Assembly (NCBI GenBank): GCA_002686955.1
Contig: NYZA01000052.1
Span: 1-6,295, forward strand
Source of the DNA: Gemmatimonadota bacterium
GTDB lineage: Bacteria > GCA-2686955
Reading direction: 5' to 3'
Length of the DNA: 6,295 nucleotides
The position numbers and the translations under genes were made by a program. Shown here one piece after another: positions 6 through 6,202 of the stretch (position 1 is the stretch's first letter; each line of letters begins with the position of its first letter). The notes under the pieces are model-generated. The model ran no database searches. It was not told the origin of the DNA and saw nothing but the letters and a program-made list of their open reading frames with translations.

Positions 6-32
6 GGCGGGGCGCCTGGATGGCGCCCCGTC
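6..32. other. GC-rich inverted repeat (possible terminator hairpin)
   Basis: A strong stem can form from GGGGCGCC (9-16) and GGCGCCCC (22-29) around the five-base loop TGGAT, and it extends outward by C8-G30, a G7-U31 wobble and G6-C32, giving about 11 pairs. No T-run follows on the + strand, and the window ends too soon to see one on the other strand. It could be a terminator of a gene to the left, a transcript-end stabiliser, or just a GC-rich chance palindrome. No complete gene is visible to its left. Confidence 0.3.
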
Positions 33-158
33 AACGCAGAGATCGGAACGAAGGCGGATGCCGGGCGAAGCGAAGGCTGTGTGCAACAGGCTCCTAGATT
101 CGTGGTGCGAAGCGCCGTCAATGGTGTAGCTTATTGCTCTTGTGGATAACCCCGAGAC

Positions 159-162
159 GGAG
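159..162 (+). promoter_or_regulatory. Ribosome binding site of gene 1
   Basis: GGAG lies seven bases before the ATG at 170. It decides the start: an in-frame TTG at 134 would add 12 residues ahead of the signal peptide and has no comparable site in front of it. Confidence 0.6.
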
Positions 163-169
163 CTCGAAC

Positions 170-1141
170 ATGCTCGCAGGTATTGCGCACCGTAGCGCAT
201 CGATACTCTTCACACTTTCGCTCCTCCTTGCACCCCGCGCCGAAGCGAAAAGCGGCGAGGGCGTCTTGGATGAGATGGTCCATGCACTGGTGGCGATGCT
301 GGGCACCTATGAACCGAACACCGCCGTCGCCCTGTCGGGCGCAGTGGACCTGACGATCACGTCGGAGTCCCTCGGTTCCCAGCCGATCGAAATCAAGGCA
401 ACCTATAAGAGTCGTCCTCCCGCCGATTTCATGGCCGATCTTACGACGTCGCTCGGCAACTATCGGATCCGCGCCAACAGGGAGCGTTACGTATTCGAGG
501 CCACCGCGGACACGCGCTACTACCAGGGCGACCGTGCTGCCATGGAGTTCGGAAGAAAGGGGAACACAACTCCCCGCACCGCGGATTTGGAAAAGGCATT
601 TCGGGAGCTTCTTGGCGAGTTCGAGATCGTGCGAATGGACGAAGTGACCGGAGCGCCGGGGGGAAAGGCGTGGAAGCTGGATCTTCGCCCCAAGAATCCC
701 GCTGAGGCCGCCGGCATCGCGCGAAGCGATCTCTACGTGCTGCAACGCACCGGGCTGCCATGGAAAATTCAGGCCTACGCCGAGGAGGGTAGAGAACGAT
801 TCAGGGCCTCGGTCGACTACGTGGGAGACCTGCCAAGCGCCGTCAAGGCCAAGATCCACGACCACGAAGAGCCGATCGAAGCGAGATTCGATCTGAGTTT
901 CGATGCCAAGGGGGAGTTCAAGGGACTGGAGGGCACAGTCACCATGGGCAAAGAAGGCTCTCTCGATCTAAAAGCCACCAGCGAGCAGCCCCGTGGTTTG
1001 GCGGATGCCGATTTTAGCTATCGACCGGGAAGCGCGTTCAAGCCGGCGACCGAGCAAGAGATGACGGTGCTCGTGATGACCCGACTCATGGGATTGGCGT
1101 TCGGATCAGCTCTCTTGCAGGGTTTTGCGCCTTCGAAATAG
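170..1141 (+). CDS. Secreted protein of unknown function (possible LolA/LppX-like fold)
   Basis: A 323-residue exported protein of unknown function. The start at 170 has a GGAG site and puts a classical signal peptide at the N-terminus: a short polar stretch with H7-R8, a hydrophobic core around residues 11-21, and an A-E-A signal peptidase I site with cleavage expected after residue 26. The mature part has no further obvious membrane segment apart from a mildly hydrophobic C-terminal stretch (about 297-318). It alternates short polar and hydrophobic strands, with phrases such as 'FMADLTTSLGNYRIRANRER' and 'YVLQRTGLPWKIQAYAEEG' that resemble the curved beta-sheet proteins of the LolA/LolB/LppX or DUF2092 type, which bind lipids in the periplasm. 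That fold is an inference from style, not from a recognised signature. No catalytic motif or cysteine-based lipobox is visible. The gene is convergent with the DUF4249 lipoprotein gene, and its last 56 bases overlap that gene's end. No functional link to its neighbours is proven. Confidence 0.82.
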   Translation: MLAGIAHRSASILFTLSLLLAPRAEAKSGEGVLDEMVHALVAMLGTYEPNTAVALSGAVDLTITSESLGSQPIEIKATYKSRPPADFMADLTTSLGNYRIRANRERYVFEATADTRYYQGDRAAMEFGRKGNTTPRTADLEKAFRELLGEFEIVRMDEVTGAPGGKAWKLDLRPKNPAEAAGIARSDLYVLQRTGLPWKIQAYAEEGRERFRASVDYVGDLPSAVKAKIHDHEEPIEARFDLSFDAKGEFKGLEGTVTMGKEGSLDLKATSEQPRGLADADFSYRPGSAFKPATEQEMTVLVMTRLMGLAFGSALLQGFAPSK

Positions 1142-2096
1142 CGCCACCTGGAAGAATCACCAGTCCAATCGAGTCGGTGGAAGCGGAGCCCAGGAGCCCG
1201 ATCCCTCCATCTACGTGAAAAATCGGGCGTTCGAAGGCATCACCGGCGAGCCCTCCCCACCGATTGTCGGTATCAACGCCGTTCGACCGGATGTAGTCGA
1301 ACCAGTTCTCGTCGATCGCGAAGAGCCTGACTAGGTGAGGACCGCCAAAAACAATGGCGAACCAAGGCATCTTGAGGCGCCCACTGTCGATGTTCATGGG
1401 GGGAGATTGCGCTCCAAATCGAGTCTGCTCGTAAATCTCCTCCCTCGATTCCTCATCGAGGAAGCTCAGATCGATGACCGGGGGGCTCCCCTGATCGAGG
1501 CGCAAGATACCAACCTGGTATGCTGAGACATCGACCGGATCGAAACGGAGCTCCGGCAGGGCGCTTAGATAGGGAACTTGATTCTCGGGTGCACCGAATA
1601 CGCCTTCCCAATCGGTCTCCGCGAACGTGACCATCGGCCGAAGCACTTCGAGCGTCTCCTCGTCTAACAGCATCGCCTCTTCAATATGTACTCTCTCCGG
1701 CGTTACTGTTTCGGCCGATGCGCGACGACCTTCGGAATCCACGCTCAGTCGGTAGCGCGTCATGGCGTGGACAACCGGCACACCATCCGGCGGCAGATAG
1801 CGGCCCGCGGAGTCCGGATCGTCGCCGTAGATCCATATGCCTTCAGGGGTTTCGAGCACGACCGTAGCTCCGGTTACGGCCGCGGCTGTATGGCTGTAGG
1901 GTCGATCGGCCGCTAAAGTCTGTCGCACATGGAGCGGCGGCAGGGGTCGGTCGACTATCAGGATCGCGTCGAGAACCAATAGATCCGATAGTCCCGGAGC
2001 AATGAGGTCTCCTGGCTCGCGTGTTGTGTCGCACGCCGCAATCAACGACATCGCGACTACTGTGAGCGAAAGCCGGCGTGCGGACACCCTTGGCAT
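1086..2096 (-). CDS. DUF4249-type outer-membrane-associated lipoprotein
   Basis: A 336-residue lipoprotein, probably the partner of the TonB-dependent receptor encoded just upstream. The N-terminus has basic residues (R3, R7, R8), a hydrophobic core and a lipobox I-A-A-C with the acylated cysteine at residue 22. The body follows the DUF4249 plan: an early beta-rich section with a 'TGATVVLETPEG' strand (75-86), the 'YRLSVDSEGRRASAETVTPE' segment (115-134) typical of the family, and a C-terminal 'FDYIRSNG...FHVDGGIGLLGSASTDS' region (266-309). The length fits the family's usual size. DUF4249 proteins are typically encoded next to TonB-dependent receptors in Bacteroidota and their exact job is unknown. 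The start at 2096 has GAGG six bases ahead; an in-frame ATG at 2108 has no such site. The residue after the cysteine is aspartate, which in enterobacteria would favour inner-membrane retention, a rule that may not hold here. The tail after about residue 316 lies in the overlap with the convergent gene and looks unstructured. The family call is from memory of its motifs. Confidence 0.85.
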   Translation of the reverse strand: MPRVSARRLSLTVVAMSLIAACDTTREPGDLIAPGLSDLLVLDAILIVDRPLPPLHVRQTLAADRPYSHTAAAVTGATVVLETPEGIWIYGDDPDSAGRYLPPDGVPVVHAMTRYRLSVDSEGRRASAETVTPERVHIEEAMLLDEETLEVLRPMVTFAETDWEGVFGAPENQVPYLSALPELRFDPVDVSAYQVGILRLDQGSPPVIDLSFLDEESREEIYEQTRFGAQSPPMNIDSGRLKMPWFAIVFGGPHLVRLFAIDENWFDYIRSNGVDTDNRWGGLAGDAFERPIFHVDGGIGLLGSASTDSIGLVILPGGAISKAQNPARELIRTPIP

Positions 2097-2102
2097 GATC
2101 GA

Positions 2103-2106
2103 CCTC
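2103..2106 (-). promoter_or_regulatory. Ribosome binding site of the DUF4249 gene
   Basis: On the minus strand GAGG is followed by the six-base spacer TCGATC and the ATG at 2096-2094. The receptor gene's TGA stop (2115-2113) lies just before it, so a ribosome finishing the receptor ends within 16 bases of this start. This arrangement suggests translational coupling. Confidence 0.55.
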
Positions 2107-2112
2107 ATCGTT

Positions 2113-4380
2113 TCAGAAGGAGAAGTTGACCCCGATCGTAGGCAGTATCGGCAGCATTCGGACAACTTCGGGATCCACCTCAGATTCAGAAGTGTCATAC
2201 TGGACGAACCATTCGTTTCGCCGGTTGTAAGCATTGAAGGCCTGCAGATAGACTTCCCAGTCCGCGCCCAGAAACCGCAGCATTCGCTTGATGCTGAGAT
2301 CCATACGGTGATAGGGGAAGAGCCTGGCGCTGTTCTTGTCAGCGGGCAGTAGAAGATCGTCCGGCAGCATCGTTCCCAAAGCGGGAGCGCGCATGGAATA
2401 GCGGGCCGACGCCGGCGTGAATGCCTGACCGGTTGCATACACTTGGGTCAGACCGAAGACCCACTTCCCCCGGCGCAATGTCGCGACCAACGAGAAATCG
2501 TGGCGGCGATCGTATTTCGGCGGATAGGATTTCCCTTGGTTCACCTCCGCAAAGGTACGCCTAGTCCATCCAAGACCGTATCCAATCCAACCGGTCAAAG
2601 CGCCGGCTCGTTTCTGCGCGAAGATCTCGAGGCCGGTGGCGTACCCTTCGCCGTCTGTGATGAATATTTTCTCTGCTGTATTGTCCTCGTCGGCGCTGTC
2701 GCTCGCCACGCGCGTGTCGACCGCGACCAGGTCGCGTAAATCCGTGTAGTAACCTTCGGCCGAAAGCTCCCAGCTCTTCGAAGGGCTCCAATCGGTTCCC
2801 ACAGCTATCTGTATCGACTCACCCGGCCGGACCGTTTCATCCAGAGGAATCCAGACATCGCCTCCGTTGAATCCCTCGGTGGCGATGAGCTGAAGATGTT
2901 GATGGTAGCTTCCCGCCGACGCCTTCACCCTCGTCGCATCGGTAAGCGCCCGACTCAGTGACAATCGCGGATCTAGGTGGAAACGCTGCCCTTCGGAGAA
3001 ATAGGACGCGCGAAACCCGAATCTAGCGCTGGTCAACGAATCGATTCTCCACTCATCTTGGGCGTAGGTTGCAAACTCGATGGGGCGGATCGCGACATCG
3101 AGCTGATCTTCCGTGTTGAATGACTGCAGATAGTCGAAATCGAAGCGGCTCGTGATCGCACCCAGATTGAGGGTGTGATTCCGCGAGAGATAGAAGTCGA
3201 AATCCGCTTTGATGGATAGATCCGAGATCACGCTTCGGAAGAGCAGTGGTGTCTCGAACAGACTGAAAGATGTCACGCTTTGGTAACGACTCCAGGCCAG
3301 GAGGAAGTTCCCGAATACCTGCGGTGAGAAGATGTGGGTCCACTTGGTCGTCACGGCGCGGTTGCCCCACTCCAGCAGAAAAGACGTGCTCGCAGTGAGA
3401 TCGAAATCGAGTCTGTCATTGCCAAAATATCCGCTGACGCTGAGCTTGTCCGCGCTCCCCAGGTCCTGGTTGACCTTGAGATTGACGTCGTAGAAGTAGT
3501 AGTCGGGTACGTCCATGCCGGAGGCTCGCATCGCGGCGAGAACTGGGTCGAGGTGGGTCCGGCGTCCGGAGAACATCCAGGAACCGCTAGCCGTGGGGCC
3601 TTCGAGAGTCGCGCGCGTAGCGATCAGGCTCATGCCCCCGCGTCCCGCGAACCGTTTTCGGTTGCCGTCCCGGTTCGCCACATCGAGAACCGCACCGAGA
3701 CGGCCGCCATAGTTGGCCGGGTACGCGCCCTTGTGTAGACTCATGTCGCGGATCGCATCGGCATTGAAGGTGGAGAAAAAGCCGAAGGCGTGCGACGGAT
3801 TATATAGCGGAATCTGGTCCAACAAAATTAGGGTCTGGTCGGGCCCTCCTCCCCGGATGTAGAGCCCGCTCGAGAAGTCGCTCGCCGATTGCACTCCCGG
3901 CAGGAGCTGCAGCCCGCGGAGGATGTCGGTTTCGACCATGGCGGGCAACTCGCGAAAACTACGCGACTCGAGCGAAACGAATCCGGTCTGAACGGCACGC
4001 TCCTGCTCTTGACGATCCGCCGACGCGACCGCGCCCTCGATCTCGATTGGGCGCACCTCGAGCGCAACGTCGACCCGTATGCGCTGGGAAGGGCGCACCA
4101 CGACCTTCCTGGTGATCGGAGCGTACCCGACGTAGCTGAGACGTAGCGTCTGAAGTCCCGGTTCGACACCGGGAAGGGCATAGTATCCGTTGGAATTCGT
4201 GGCTGTCCCGTGGAGGGTCCCAACAATGGTGATGTTTGCCCATGCAAGTGGTTCTCCGGATTCCAGATCGGTCACGAATCCGGCGATGGTCCCGGCGGAA
4301 GCGGAGAATGGCAGGCAGAGGAAAAGAACGAGATTCCTCTGGATCTTCGAGCGCAAGGACAAAGCGGCAAGGAAGTTCAT
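2113..4380 (-). CDS. TonB-dependent outer-membrane receptor with carboxypeptidase-regulatory-like N-terminal domain
   Basis: A 755-residue outer-membrane active transporter, powered by TonB-ExbB-ExbD; the substrate is unknown. In order: a signal peptide (about 1-29, ending S-A-S-A); a carboxypeptidase-regulatory-like beta-sandwich (31-110) with the usual 'GFVTDLESGEPLAWANI', 'GTATNSNGYYALPGV' and 'LSYVGYAP' strands; a plug domain (about 143-238) with 'ILRGLQLLPGV', 'LYIRGGGPDQTLILLDQIPL', 'YNPSHAFGFFSTFNADAI' and 'YPANYGGRLGAVLDV'; then a long beta-barrel of aromatic-rich alternating strands ending in 'TIGVNFSF', whose terminal phenylalanine fits the outer-membrane assembly signal. Length is normal and the frame is intact. 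No STN domain precedes the plug, so sigma/anti-sigma signalling of the FecA kind is not indicated. The open frame continues upstream to 4506, but the ATG at 4380 gives the only convincing signal peptide; it lacks a clear Shine-Dalgarno site. It is the first gene of an operon with the DUF4249 lipoprotein. The plug style matches receptors that accompany DUF4249 genes in Bacteroidota rather than the SusC glycan receptors paired with SusD. Confidence 0.95.
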   Translation of the reverse strand: MNFLAALSLRSKIQRNLVLFLCLPFSASAGTIAGFVTDLESGEPLAWANITIVGTLHGTATNSNGYYALPGVEPGLQTLRLSYVGYAPITRKVVVRPSQRIRVDVALEVRPIEIEGAVASADRQEQERAVQTGFVSLESRSFRELPAMVETDILRGLQLLPGVQSASDFSSGLYIRGGGPDQTLILLDQIPLYNPSHAFGFFSTFNADAIRDMSLHKGAYPANYGGRLGAVLDVANRDGNRKRFAGRGGMSLIATRATLEGPTASGSWMFSGRRTHLDPVLAAMRASGMDVPDYYFYDVNLKVNQDLGSADKLSVSGYFGNDRLDFDLTASTSFLLEWGNRAVTTKWTHIFSPQVFGNFLLAWSRYQSVTSFSLFETPLLFRSVISDLSIKADFDFYLSRNHTLNLGAITSRFDFDYLQSFNTEDQLDVAIRPIEFATYAQDEWRIDSLTSARFGFRASYFSEGQRFHLDPRLSLSRALTDATRVKASAGSYHQHLQLIATEGFNGGDVWIPLDETVRPGESIQIAVGTDWSPSKSWELSAEGYYTDLRDLVAVDTRVASDSADEDNTAEKIFITDGEGYATGLEIFAQKRAGALTGWIGYGLGWTRRTFAEVNQGKSYPPKYDRRHDFSLVATLRRGKWVFGLTQVYATGQAFTPASARYSMRAPALGTMLPDDLLLPADKNSARLFPYHRMDLSIKRMLRFLGADWEVYLQAFNAYNRRNEWFVQYDTSESEVDPEVVRMLPILPTIGVNFSF

Positions 4381-4570: not shown

Positions 4571-6202
4571 ATGACATCTCCTCTCGCGTTGCCCGCCCCC
4601 TTGTCGGTCCTCCAAATGCGACTGGCCGCGGCGGAGACCAACACGTTGCGGCGAGACCGAGCCGCGACACTCTTCGAGTCGATCCTCCGGTTCGCTACCT
4701 TGGTGACCACCGCACGCTACCTGCAAATCGCGGGCCGAATCCAGGGCCAGGGAGGAATCGCAGCGAATGAGGCCCGCGTGGCCGACGTCGGGGAGCTCCT
4801 GGGAAGGGGCACCCTAGGCGCCTGGCTCGATCTGATGCATGGTTCGCTGGAGTACCTTCGTGCCCACAACGATGAGCTCCTGATTCCAGGCATTCACGGA
4901 TTCTACTTCGGCTCACGCAAGCCCGATCGCGATGCTGTCGCACGGGCGCACGATACCCTCGCGCTCGCAATCGGCGGCGAAGCTCCCGCGACTCACACCC
5001 TTGAGCGTATGGCTCGTTTCTACGCCGACCGGCGGGCAGAGAAACCCGATCTTGCCCCCTATCTACACGAAGTCGACGAGAACCTCGTGGCGGACGCACT
5101 CACCGAGGCGATTGAACAGCTGTGCGCCGAAATCGTCGCTTTGGTCCCATGTATTCCCGCGATCATGGTGGGCCACGAAGAACATCCCCGGCGCGCCTGG
5201 TTGAGACCCCTTCCTCGATCCGGCCAACCGTCCGACAAGCTGATCGAGATCAGGGTCGCCGAAGCCGATGAGCTCGCACCCCCAGGGCATCTGATGCTCA
5301 CGTGGACGGCGGGAGATTACTCCATTCTCCTCGACCTCCATCCCTTCGCGATCGTTCGTGATTCCCACATCCATTTTCTTGACCACGGAATCGATGGCGG
5401 CGCGCGATATGCCAGTCCGGTCTTGGGCATCACGGACGGCGACCAGCCTCTGTCGACCAAGACCGATCTCCTGGGTCGTTATCGCATCGTCGAGTTGCTC
5501 GGGGCCAGAAAGGCACACGCGATCGACCTGGAGAGCGGTTCAGAGCTCGAACTGTCGCTCGCAAGGCACGGGAGTGGGTCGCGAGAGGAGCGTTCCAAGG
5601 CGATCAGGGTGCTCCGAGATCGCATGCGGGCCCTGGCACCGATCCCCGGACTGCGCTGCAGCAGCGAGATCCTGGAGGTTGGACAGTGGGTCGCTTCGGT
5701 CCGTCCATGGGCCCAGGGGCGCCCCTTCCTGGATTGGGTGGAGTCGGGGCGCCGAAACGCGATCGAGGTGGCTGGCATCGTCGAGCGGGTGGCGCGAACG
5801 GTCCGAGACATGCATGCCGTGGGCCACCAGCACGGTCGGCTGACCGACAAGCGTGTGGTCATCGATGACGATGGCGCATCGGTGGTTCTCGTGAGCGGTC
5901 TCCCTCCCAGGCCCGGCTGGGATTCCGATCACCGATCGATTCTCGAAATCCTGGCCTCGGCGATACCGGCGGAGGCCGACGGTAGATTCGGGCGGCTGCG
6001 CGCCCTGGCCCAGAAACCAAGAACCACCGAGGACGATTCTGAATCCCGTGGACCTCCCTCGGGCATCGACGAGCTGATCGACGAACTAGGCGCGGCCCTC
6101 GAAAAATGGGAGGCGGAAGACCTCAGCCCGACCGCCCCGACGGGACGGCGCGAGTCTCGATGGTGGCGGCGCACCTGGGCGAAATTGCGGCGAGGTCCCT
6201 AG
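4571..6202 (+). CDS. Pseudokinase fusion protein: uncharacterised helical module plus degenerate kinase-like domain
   Basis: A 543-residue protein with no signal peptide, probably cytoplasmic. Residues about 6-195 are mainly helical and begin with a 'LPAPLSVLQMRLAAAETNTL' type segment, followed by a 'GELLGRGTLGAWLDLMH' stretch; I do not recognise a named family. Residues about 222-290 form a beta-rich section ('GHLMLTWTAGDYSILLDLHP', then 'HIHFLDHG'). From about residue 300 the protein follows the protein-kinase plan: 'DLLGRYRIVELLG' as the first strand, a helical lobe with 'VARTVRDMHAVGHQHGRLTD' at the catalytic-loop position, 'VVIDDDGASVVLVSGLPP' where the DFG strand should be, and 'DSDHRSILEILASAI' where kinases have the D-x-x-S-L-G helix. 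The glycine-rich loop, the VAIK lysine, the HRD aspartate (arginine here), the catalytic-loop asparagine (arginine here) and the DFG aspartate (valine here) are all missing, so phosphotransfer is not expected. A polar linker leads to a tail rich in tryptophan and arginine (525-543) that might touch membranes or nucleic acid. The gene is divergent from the receptor operon. A scaffold or signal-sensing role is inference. Confidence 0.85.
   Translation: MTSPLALPAPLSVLQMRLAAAETNTLRRDRAATLFESILRFATLVTTARYLQIAGRIQGQGGIAANEARVADVGELLGRGTLGAWLDLMHGSLEYLRAHNDELLIPGIHGFYFGSRKPDRDAVARAHDTLALAIGGEAPATHTLERMARFYADRRAEKPDLAPYLHEVDENLVADALTEAIEQLCAEIVALVPCIPAIMVGHEEHPRRAWLRPLPRSGQPSDKLIEIRVAEADELAPPGHLMLTWTAGDYSILLDLHPFAIVRDSHIHFLDHGIDGGARYASPVLGITDGDQPLSTKTDLLGRYRIVELLGARKAHAIDLESGSELELSLARHGSGSREERSKAIRVLRDRMRALAPIPGLRCSSEILEVGQWVASVRPWAQGRPFLDWVESGRRNAIEVAGIVERVARTVRDMHAVGHQHGRLTDKRVVIDDDGASVVLVSGLPPRPGWDSDHRSILEILASAIPAEADGRFGRLRALAQKPRTTEDDSESRGPPSGIDELIDELGAALEKWEAEDLSPTAPTGRRESRWWRRTWAKLRRGP

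Follow-up and report, generated by a model that had tools for sequence, protein, structure and literature searches.

The window, that is, the whole stretch of DNA analysed, is a complete contig of 6295 bp from a 4.28-Mb genome (84.5% complete). It carries genes for a secreted-looking protein, a DUF4249 protein and a TonB-dependent receptor, and a 543-codon ORF whose predicted product consists of an N-terminal helical and beta module, a kinase-fold domain and a short tail (Table 1). A GGAG sequence sits a few bases 5′ of the ATG of this ORF. No in-frame stop is found in its frame while each of the other five frames has 5–12, none of 5000 base shuffles of the ORF stayed open, and the codon-position GC is about 0.71/0.50/0.72, steady over the entire length. 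On these three grounds, the ORF is a real coding sequence over its full length, and the intact frame of 543 codons reported in a preliminary description of this DNA is confirmed.

Table 1. Features of the window and of the protein encoded at its 3′ end
Feature	Position	Strand	Basis or remark
Secreted-looking protein, weakly LolA-like	134-1141	+	sub-threshold match
DUF4249 protein, directly downstream of the TonB receptor gene	1089-2438	-	26.2 bits, just below cut-off
TonB-dependent receptor with N-terminal carboxypeptidase-regulatory domain and plug	2113-4380	-	Pfam
Whole ORF, module and predicted pseudokinase	4571..6202	+	543 aa, ATG 4571, stop 6200-6202
All-helical N-terminal part of the module (aa 7-193)	4589..5149	+	alignment, model
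Site of the RN(x)4GHG motif (aa 134-165), R-N gone	4970..5065	+	alignment uncertain, pLDDT low
Beta part of the module (aa 194-292)	5150..5446	+	alignment, model
Predicted pseudokinase domain (aa 298-516)	5462..6118	+	AlphaFold2 model, Foldseek, fold search Z, hhalign
Glycine-loop site LGARKAHAI (aa 310-318), glycines gone	5498..5524	+	alignment to intact relatives
Beta3 strand ELELSLAR (aa 325-332), without catalytic Lys	5543..5566	+	model and residue mapping
Catalytic-loop site HGRLTDKRVVI (aa 421-431), compared with HRDxKPxNILV	5831..5863	+	alignment to intact kinases
DFG site VSG (aa 441-443)	5891..5899	+	residue mapping
C-terminal tail (aa 517-543), ...SRWWRRTWAKLRRGP	6119..6199	+	aligned to the juxtamembrane tail of intact relatives

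The C-terminal half of the protein is, as judged from alignments and a structural model, a Hanks-fold pseudokinase that has lost every catalytic motif. A profile of intact kinases, built without the window protein, aligned with residues about 370–540, a stretch that takes in the tail (hhalign, P 83%, E 8.6e-6). In an AlphaFold2 model made from a 19-row family alignment (mean pLDDT 72.6), residues 297–516 match Hanks kinases with Z up to 18, and Foldseek returned Hanks kinases at E about 1e-7, with Rv3910 among the top rows; since intact kinases were included in the 19-row alignment, the fold is not independent of the homology. A single-sequence AlphaFold2 prediction of the protein gave pLDDT 37 and was rejected. 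The kinase layout proposed earlier for this half is thus borne out by hhalign, the model and Foldseek.

Mapping to intact relatives places each loss at the position given in the preliminary description, and a misalignment, which had been considered there, was not found. The LGxGxxG of the glycine loop is replaced by L310-GARKAHAI. The alignments in beta3 and alphaC are uncertain: the beta3 Lys corresponds to R332 by alignment or to S329 if ungapped, and the alphaC Glu to R351. HRDxKPxN reads H421-G-R-L-T-D-K-R428, with R423 for the HRD Asp, T425 for the Lys and R428 for the Asn, and V441 takes the place of the DFG Asp in a site that reads V441-S-G. The activation segment from past the DFG site to alphaF, including the APE motif, is essentially gone, while the start of the D-x-x-S helix is kept as D453-H-R-S456. 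By fold and homology, therefore, this half goes with the Hanks-type kinases, from which it departs in the catalytic Lys, the HRD Asp and the DFG Asp.

Bacterial Ser/Thr pseudokinases have been defined as kinases without at least one of the beta3 Lys, HRD Asp and DFG Asp, a definition under which the window protein falls, and those lacking all three motifs are relatively common according to the same source (PMC12599244). A dead kinase alone is for this reason ordinary. For example, MviN/Rv3910 of Mycobacterium tuberculosis (ActPs3 family) is likewise a Hanks-fold pseudokinase with all three motifs gone; its domain is carried on a lipid II flippase, whereas the window protein is most likely soluble and has a different N-terminal module. 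The beta3 Lys, HRD Asp and/or DFG Asp are also lost in the ActPs1/2, GLW, CP1, DLHK and EssB/YukC families, of which DLHK shares with the window protein the arginines in the pocket and EssB the shortened activation loop; in the available part of that survey, none of them is reported with this N-terminal module, and HGRLTDKR and VSG, compared with the printed motifs alone, are unlike theirs (PMC12599244).

Curated libraries and direct searches returned little. The window protein has no match in NCBIfam or among PDB sequences, and its kinase half is not reported by Pfam PF00069. No orthologue was found in 386 genomes, a GTDB contig scan, plasmids and viral contigs; the 386 include one genome of the same family (83% complete), in which the gene is absent. 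Homologue searches with the single sequence yielded nothing convincing: three short matches proved to be antisense noise over a FabH-like gene, an unrelated repeat-rich protein and a subtilase (as judged by eye), and a fourth is a plain kinase. From a divergent alignment of five rows, no search patterns of use could be drawn.

The N-terminus of the window protein resembles a region that recurs at the N-terminus of bacterial Ser/Thr kinases. The bait was a consensus invented after the window had been read and not derived from it. This bait fetched real proteins, which led to further ones; with plasmids (tblastn of the invented consensus) and viral contigs, no relatives of the module were obtained. 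The key tests of membership use real sequences only, with the window left out, and an hhalign comparison of the window with A7 was circular and was left unused for that reason. With hhalign, the window N-terminus aligned to three of the proteins found at P 86% and E 5.1e-6, and both LPxPL and LGxW fell in register. An HMM of 18 found modules gave 27.1 bits on the window, the best of 500 shuffles reaching 3.8. The significant stretch of the match covers about aa 7–118, and the beta part rests on collinear alignment. The family signature LPxPxA...(R)P(S/T)LGxW reads LPAPLS...RGTLGAW in the helical part, and L(H/D)PxLV...YFLN...EYLSYxTG is represented by LDLHPFAI...HFLDHG...YASPVLG in the beta part. 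The order of helical part, beta part, kinase and basic tail is that of the module-kinase family in both alignment and model. The N-terminus is thus, by these sequence comparisons, a divergent copy of a recurrent kinase-associated module. The earlier statement that it matches no family is correct for Pfam, NCBIfam and PADLOC, from all of which the module is absent, and incorrect in substance, a profile-supported family being at hand.

The module comprises roughly 250–300 residues with helical and beta parts, and the fetched loci contain 63 non-redundant ORFs of the family. A scan of 84,980 genomes gave 19 module loci, which belong to Planctomycetota, to Polyangium and a further MAG of the Myxococcales, to Kuenenia and to Bacteroidales; one more was located in an unclassified MAG. 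At least one module match is present in 23 of 199 genomes from the phylum of the genome of L040, and one Planctomycetota genome (G387, the genome of L028) has 15. Mostly, the module precedes a canonical Ser/Thr kinase (L028, L029, L031, L033, L034, L040, L041–L045), twice in tandem in L040, and in L050 (G349:C549) it lies between two Ser/Thr kinase domains in one frame. Elsewhere it is joined to TPR (L027, L030, L035–L038) or, as read by eye from the sequence, to a Clp-type ATPase (L017, L025) or a STAND-type NTPase (L052, L053 and L104). HRD..N is intact in 31 of 36 kinase-bearing members, and among the remaining five are truncated or frameshifted frames as well as L087, in which the script overlooked the motif. 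The module-Hanks kinases of Planctomycetota and Kuenenia (L028, L040, L043, L045) have the same helical and beta module, kinase and basic juxtamembrane tail as the window protein, which is collinear with them over its full length. They differ from it in keeping GxGxxG, VALK, HRDxKPxN, D(F/L)G, APE and RN(x)4GHG, all gone in the window, and in extending past the tail with a hydrophobic helix, apparently a transmembrane one, and further sequence; the window protein ends where this helix would start. A consistent operon was sought in the neighbourhoods of the relatives and none was found.

Some further arrangements were observed in the family. Three module proteins lie in tandem in G504:C292, which is from a planctomycete genome other than G387. 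On a Bacteroidales contig (L030), two module proteins are encoded near each other at 21–3086 and 4066–6388 of the plus strand, one module being followed by an AAA/NACHT-like NTPase region and the other by TPR and membrane segments. A remote subgroup (L095–L100) has RNDFIGHA instead of RNxxxGHG and consists of large proteins with no recognised kinase downstream within the available stretch.

The module carries a short, near-invariant motif. The pattern R[NDH]...[GAS]H is present in 55 of the 63 non-redundant ORFs, and R, N, G, H and G are invariant in the 14-row module alignment. HEPN domains are marked by Rx4-6H with a polar residue after R (PMC3710099), a form that the RN(x)4GH motif of the relatives has and that most of them show. 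At motif level, this suggests that the module may be a HEPN domain. Its N-terminal part is predicted to be all-helical (AlphaFold2). The module gave no supporting match to Pfam HEPN, PADLOC or PDB sequences, and no HEPN fold appeared in a PDB fold search of the whole model, a search that effectively covered the kinase domain. In the window, R-N is gone at the aligned motif site in either alignment, and H142 may remain. A shifted motif was considered in the RDx5H string at aa 120–127, the only such string, and rejected because it lies about one helix before the equivalent site. Two predicted active sites, that of the kinase and that of the module motif, are therefore gone in the window protein.

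If the module is HEPN, the relatives would be like Ire1 and RNase L, KEN/HEPN RNases that join a kinase fold to an Rx4-6H-type domain. These two are, however, eukaryotic and have the kinase first and HEPN last, whereas here the module comes first and its motif is gone in the window.

Probably, the gene encodes a soluble module-pseudokinase with a non-catalytic role, that of a scaffold or decoy which docks on a partner. The ancestor would have been an apparently membrane-anchored bacterial Ser/Thr kinase with the N-terminal module. The module of the present protein would bind the same target as that of the active relatives, and the kinase-fold lobe would dock on a partner and be controlled by it, the simplest candidates being the products of the other Hanks-kinase loci, of which the genome has 11. 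This mode of working may be likened to that of the M. tuberculosis pseudokinase MviN/Rv3910, which recruits FhaA once PknB has phosphorylated it (PMC6180346). ATP may be bound without the canonical residues. Counted against the soluble regulator, no neighbour or operon on the 6.3-kb contig points to a partner, and the missing orthologue means that nothing shows the pseudokinase state to be conserved. A second module copy is also missing: a module profile without the window (A9, 14 rows), run on the own genome (84.5% complete) in six frames, matched the window ORF alone (E 1.5e-6), and none of the other Hanks kinases of this genome has the module.

A decaying gene is the first alternative: a former module-kinase, now without its membrane part and both active sites, would be drifting with a frame unbroken so far. 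Two independent active sites and the usual following membrane segment are gone, the gene is single in its genome, and the one same-family genome lacks it. Nevertheless, the 543 codons are free of stops and frameshifts, coding composition is uniform over all domains, and LGxW, LHP, the hydrophobic pattern, the HxxG loop, DHRS and the tail are kept where the catalytic positions are gone, so that decay appears rather unlikely. Another reading takes the arginines seriously: the kinase-fold half may be active by other chemistry or bind a nucleotide without metal through a basic pocket of R332, R351, R423 and R428, which occupy four catalytic positions in the alignment. An arginine-lined, metal-independent pocket and SelO/SidJ provide precedents, and a basic pocket of this sort is found in models of DLHK pseudokinases and in descriptions of ULK4 (PMC12599244). 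The pattern may be due to chance, however, because the C-terminal half is already 14% Arg and because alignment is uncertain at beta3 and alphaC, and no orthologue was found that shows these arginines conserved; we consider such activity unlikely. Little credence is likewise given to the boldest combination, in which the parent family would be a counterpart of Ire1 and RNase L in reversed order, a kinase-controlled HEPN-type RNase, and the window protein a double-loss regulator whose arginine pocket senses an anionic ligand without metal.

Two database matches lead to other identities. The sole Pfam match of the protein is PF06293 (Kdo; E 0.0056–0.015, 15.2–16.6 bits), as if the C-terminal half belonged to the Kdo/WaaP lipopolysaccharide kinases or a similar kinase-like family and not to the Hanks kinases. 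The score lies below the cut-off of 21.3 bits and covers 32 catalytic-loop residues, a stretch common to many kinase families, and an intact family member (L045) is likewise a weak Kdo match. Module, order and tail all fit the Hanks-kinase family, and a Kdo/WaaP origin is hardly credible. PADLOC gave Mokosh MkoA at E 0.0017 in the kinase region alone, and L052 and L053 (by eye L104 as well) join the module to NTPase regions, while in L030 it adjoins one, as might be expected if the protein served in anti-phage defence or another conflict system as effector or sensor. An identity with MkoA was rejected, for 14 bits fall on 69 residues of a profile of length 1607 and no helicase match occurs in the 543 aa. 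Moreover, none of the PADLOC models matched the module in 14 members, the neighbours of several relatives are ordinary, and the window has no defence neighbours. A defence role is therefore very unlikely, and the soluble scaffold or decoy stays as the preferred account of the window gene.

What is new here is the N-terminal module family; the dead Hanks kinase itself is of a known kind, and the parent family is more interesting than the dead kinase. The module, marked by its near-invariant RN(x)4GH, recurs in fusions with Ser/Thr kinases, TPR proteins, Clp-type ATPases and STAND-type NTPases. Should it prove to be a HEPN RNase, kinase-RNase fusions comparable to Ire1 and RNase L would exist in bacteria, and the window protein would be a natural double-dead version for probing the module without catalysis.

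The genome of the window also has, on the minus strand of another contig (L015, G000:C5:12547-13260), a kinase-fold protein with the catalytic loop HGCLDIDTVLL and the DFG site GFG. It is likely a second pseudokinase of the same genome, with a C-terminus that looks Roadblock/LC7-like by eye.
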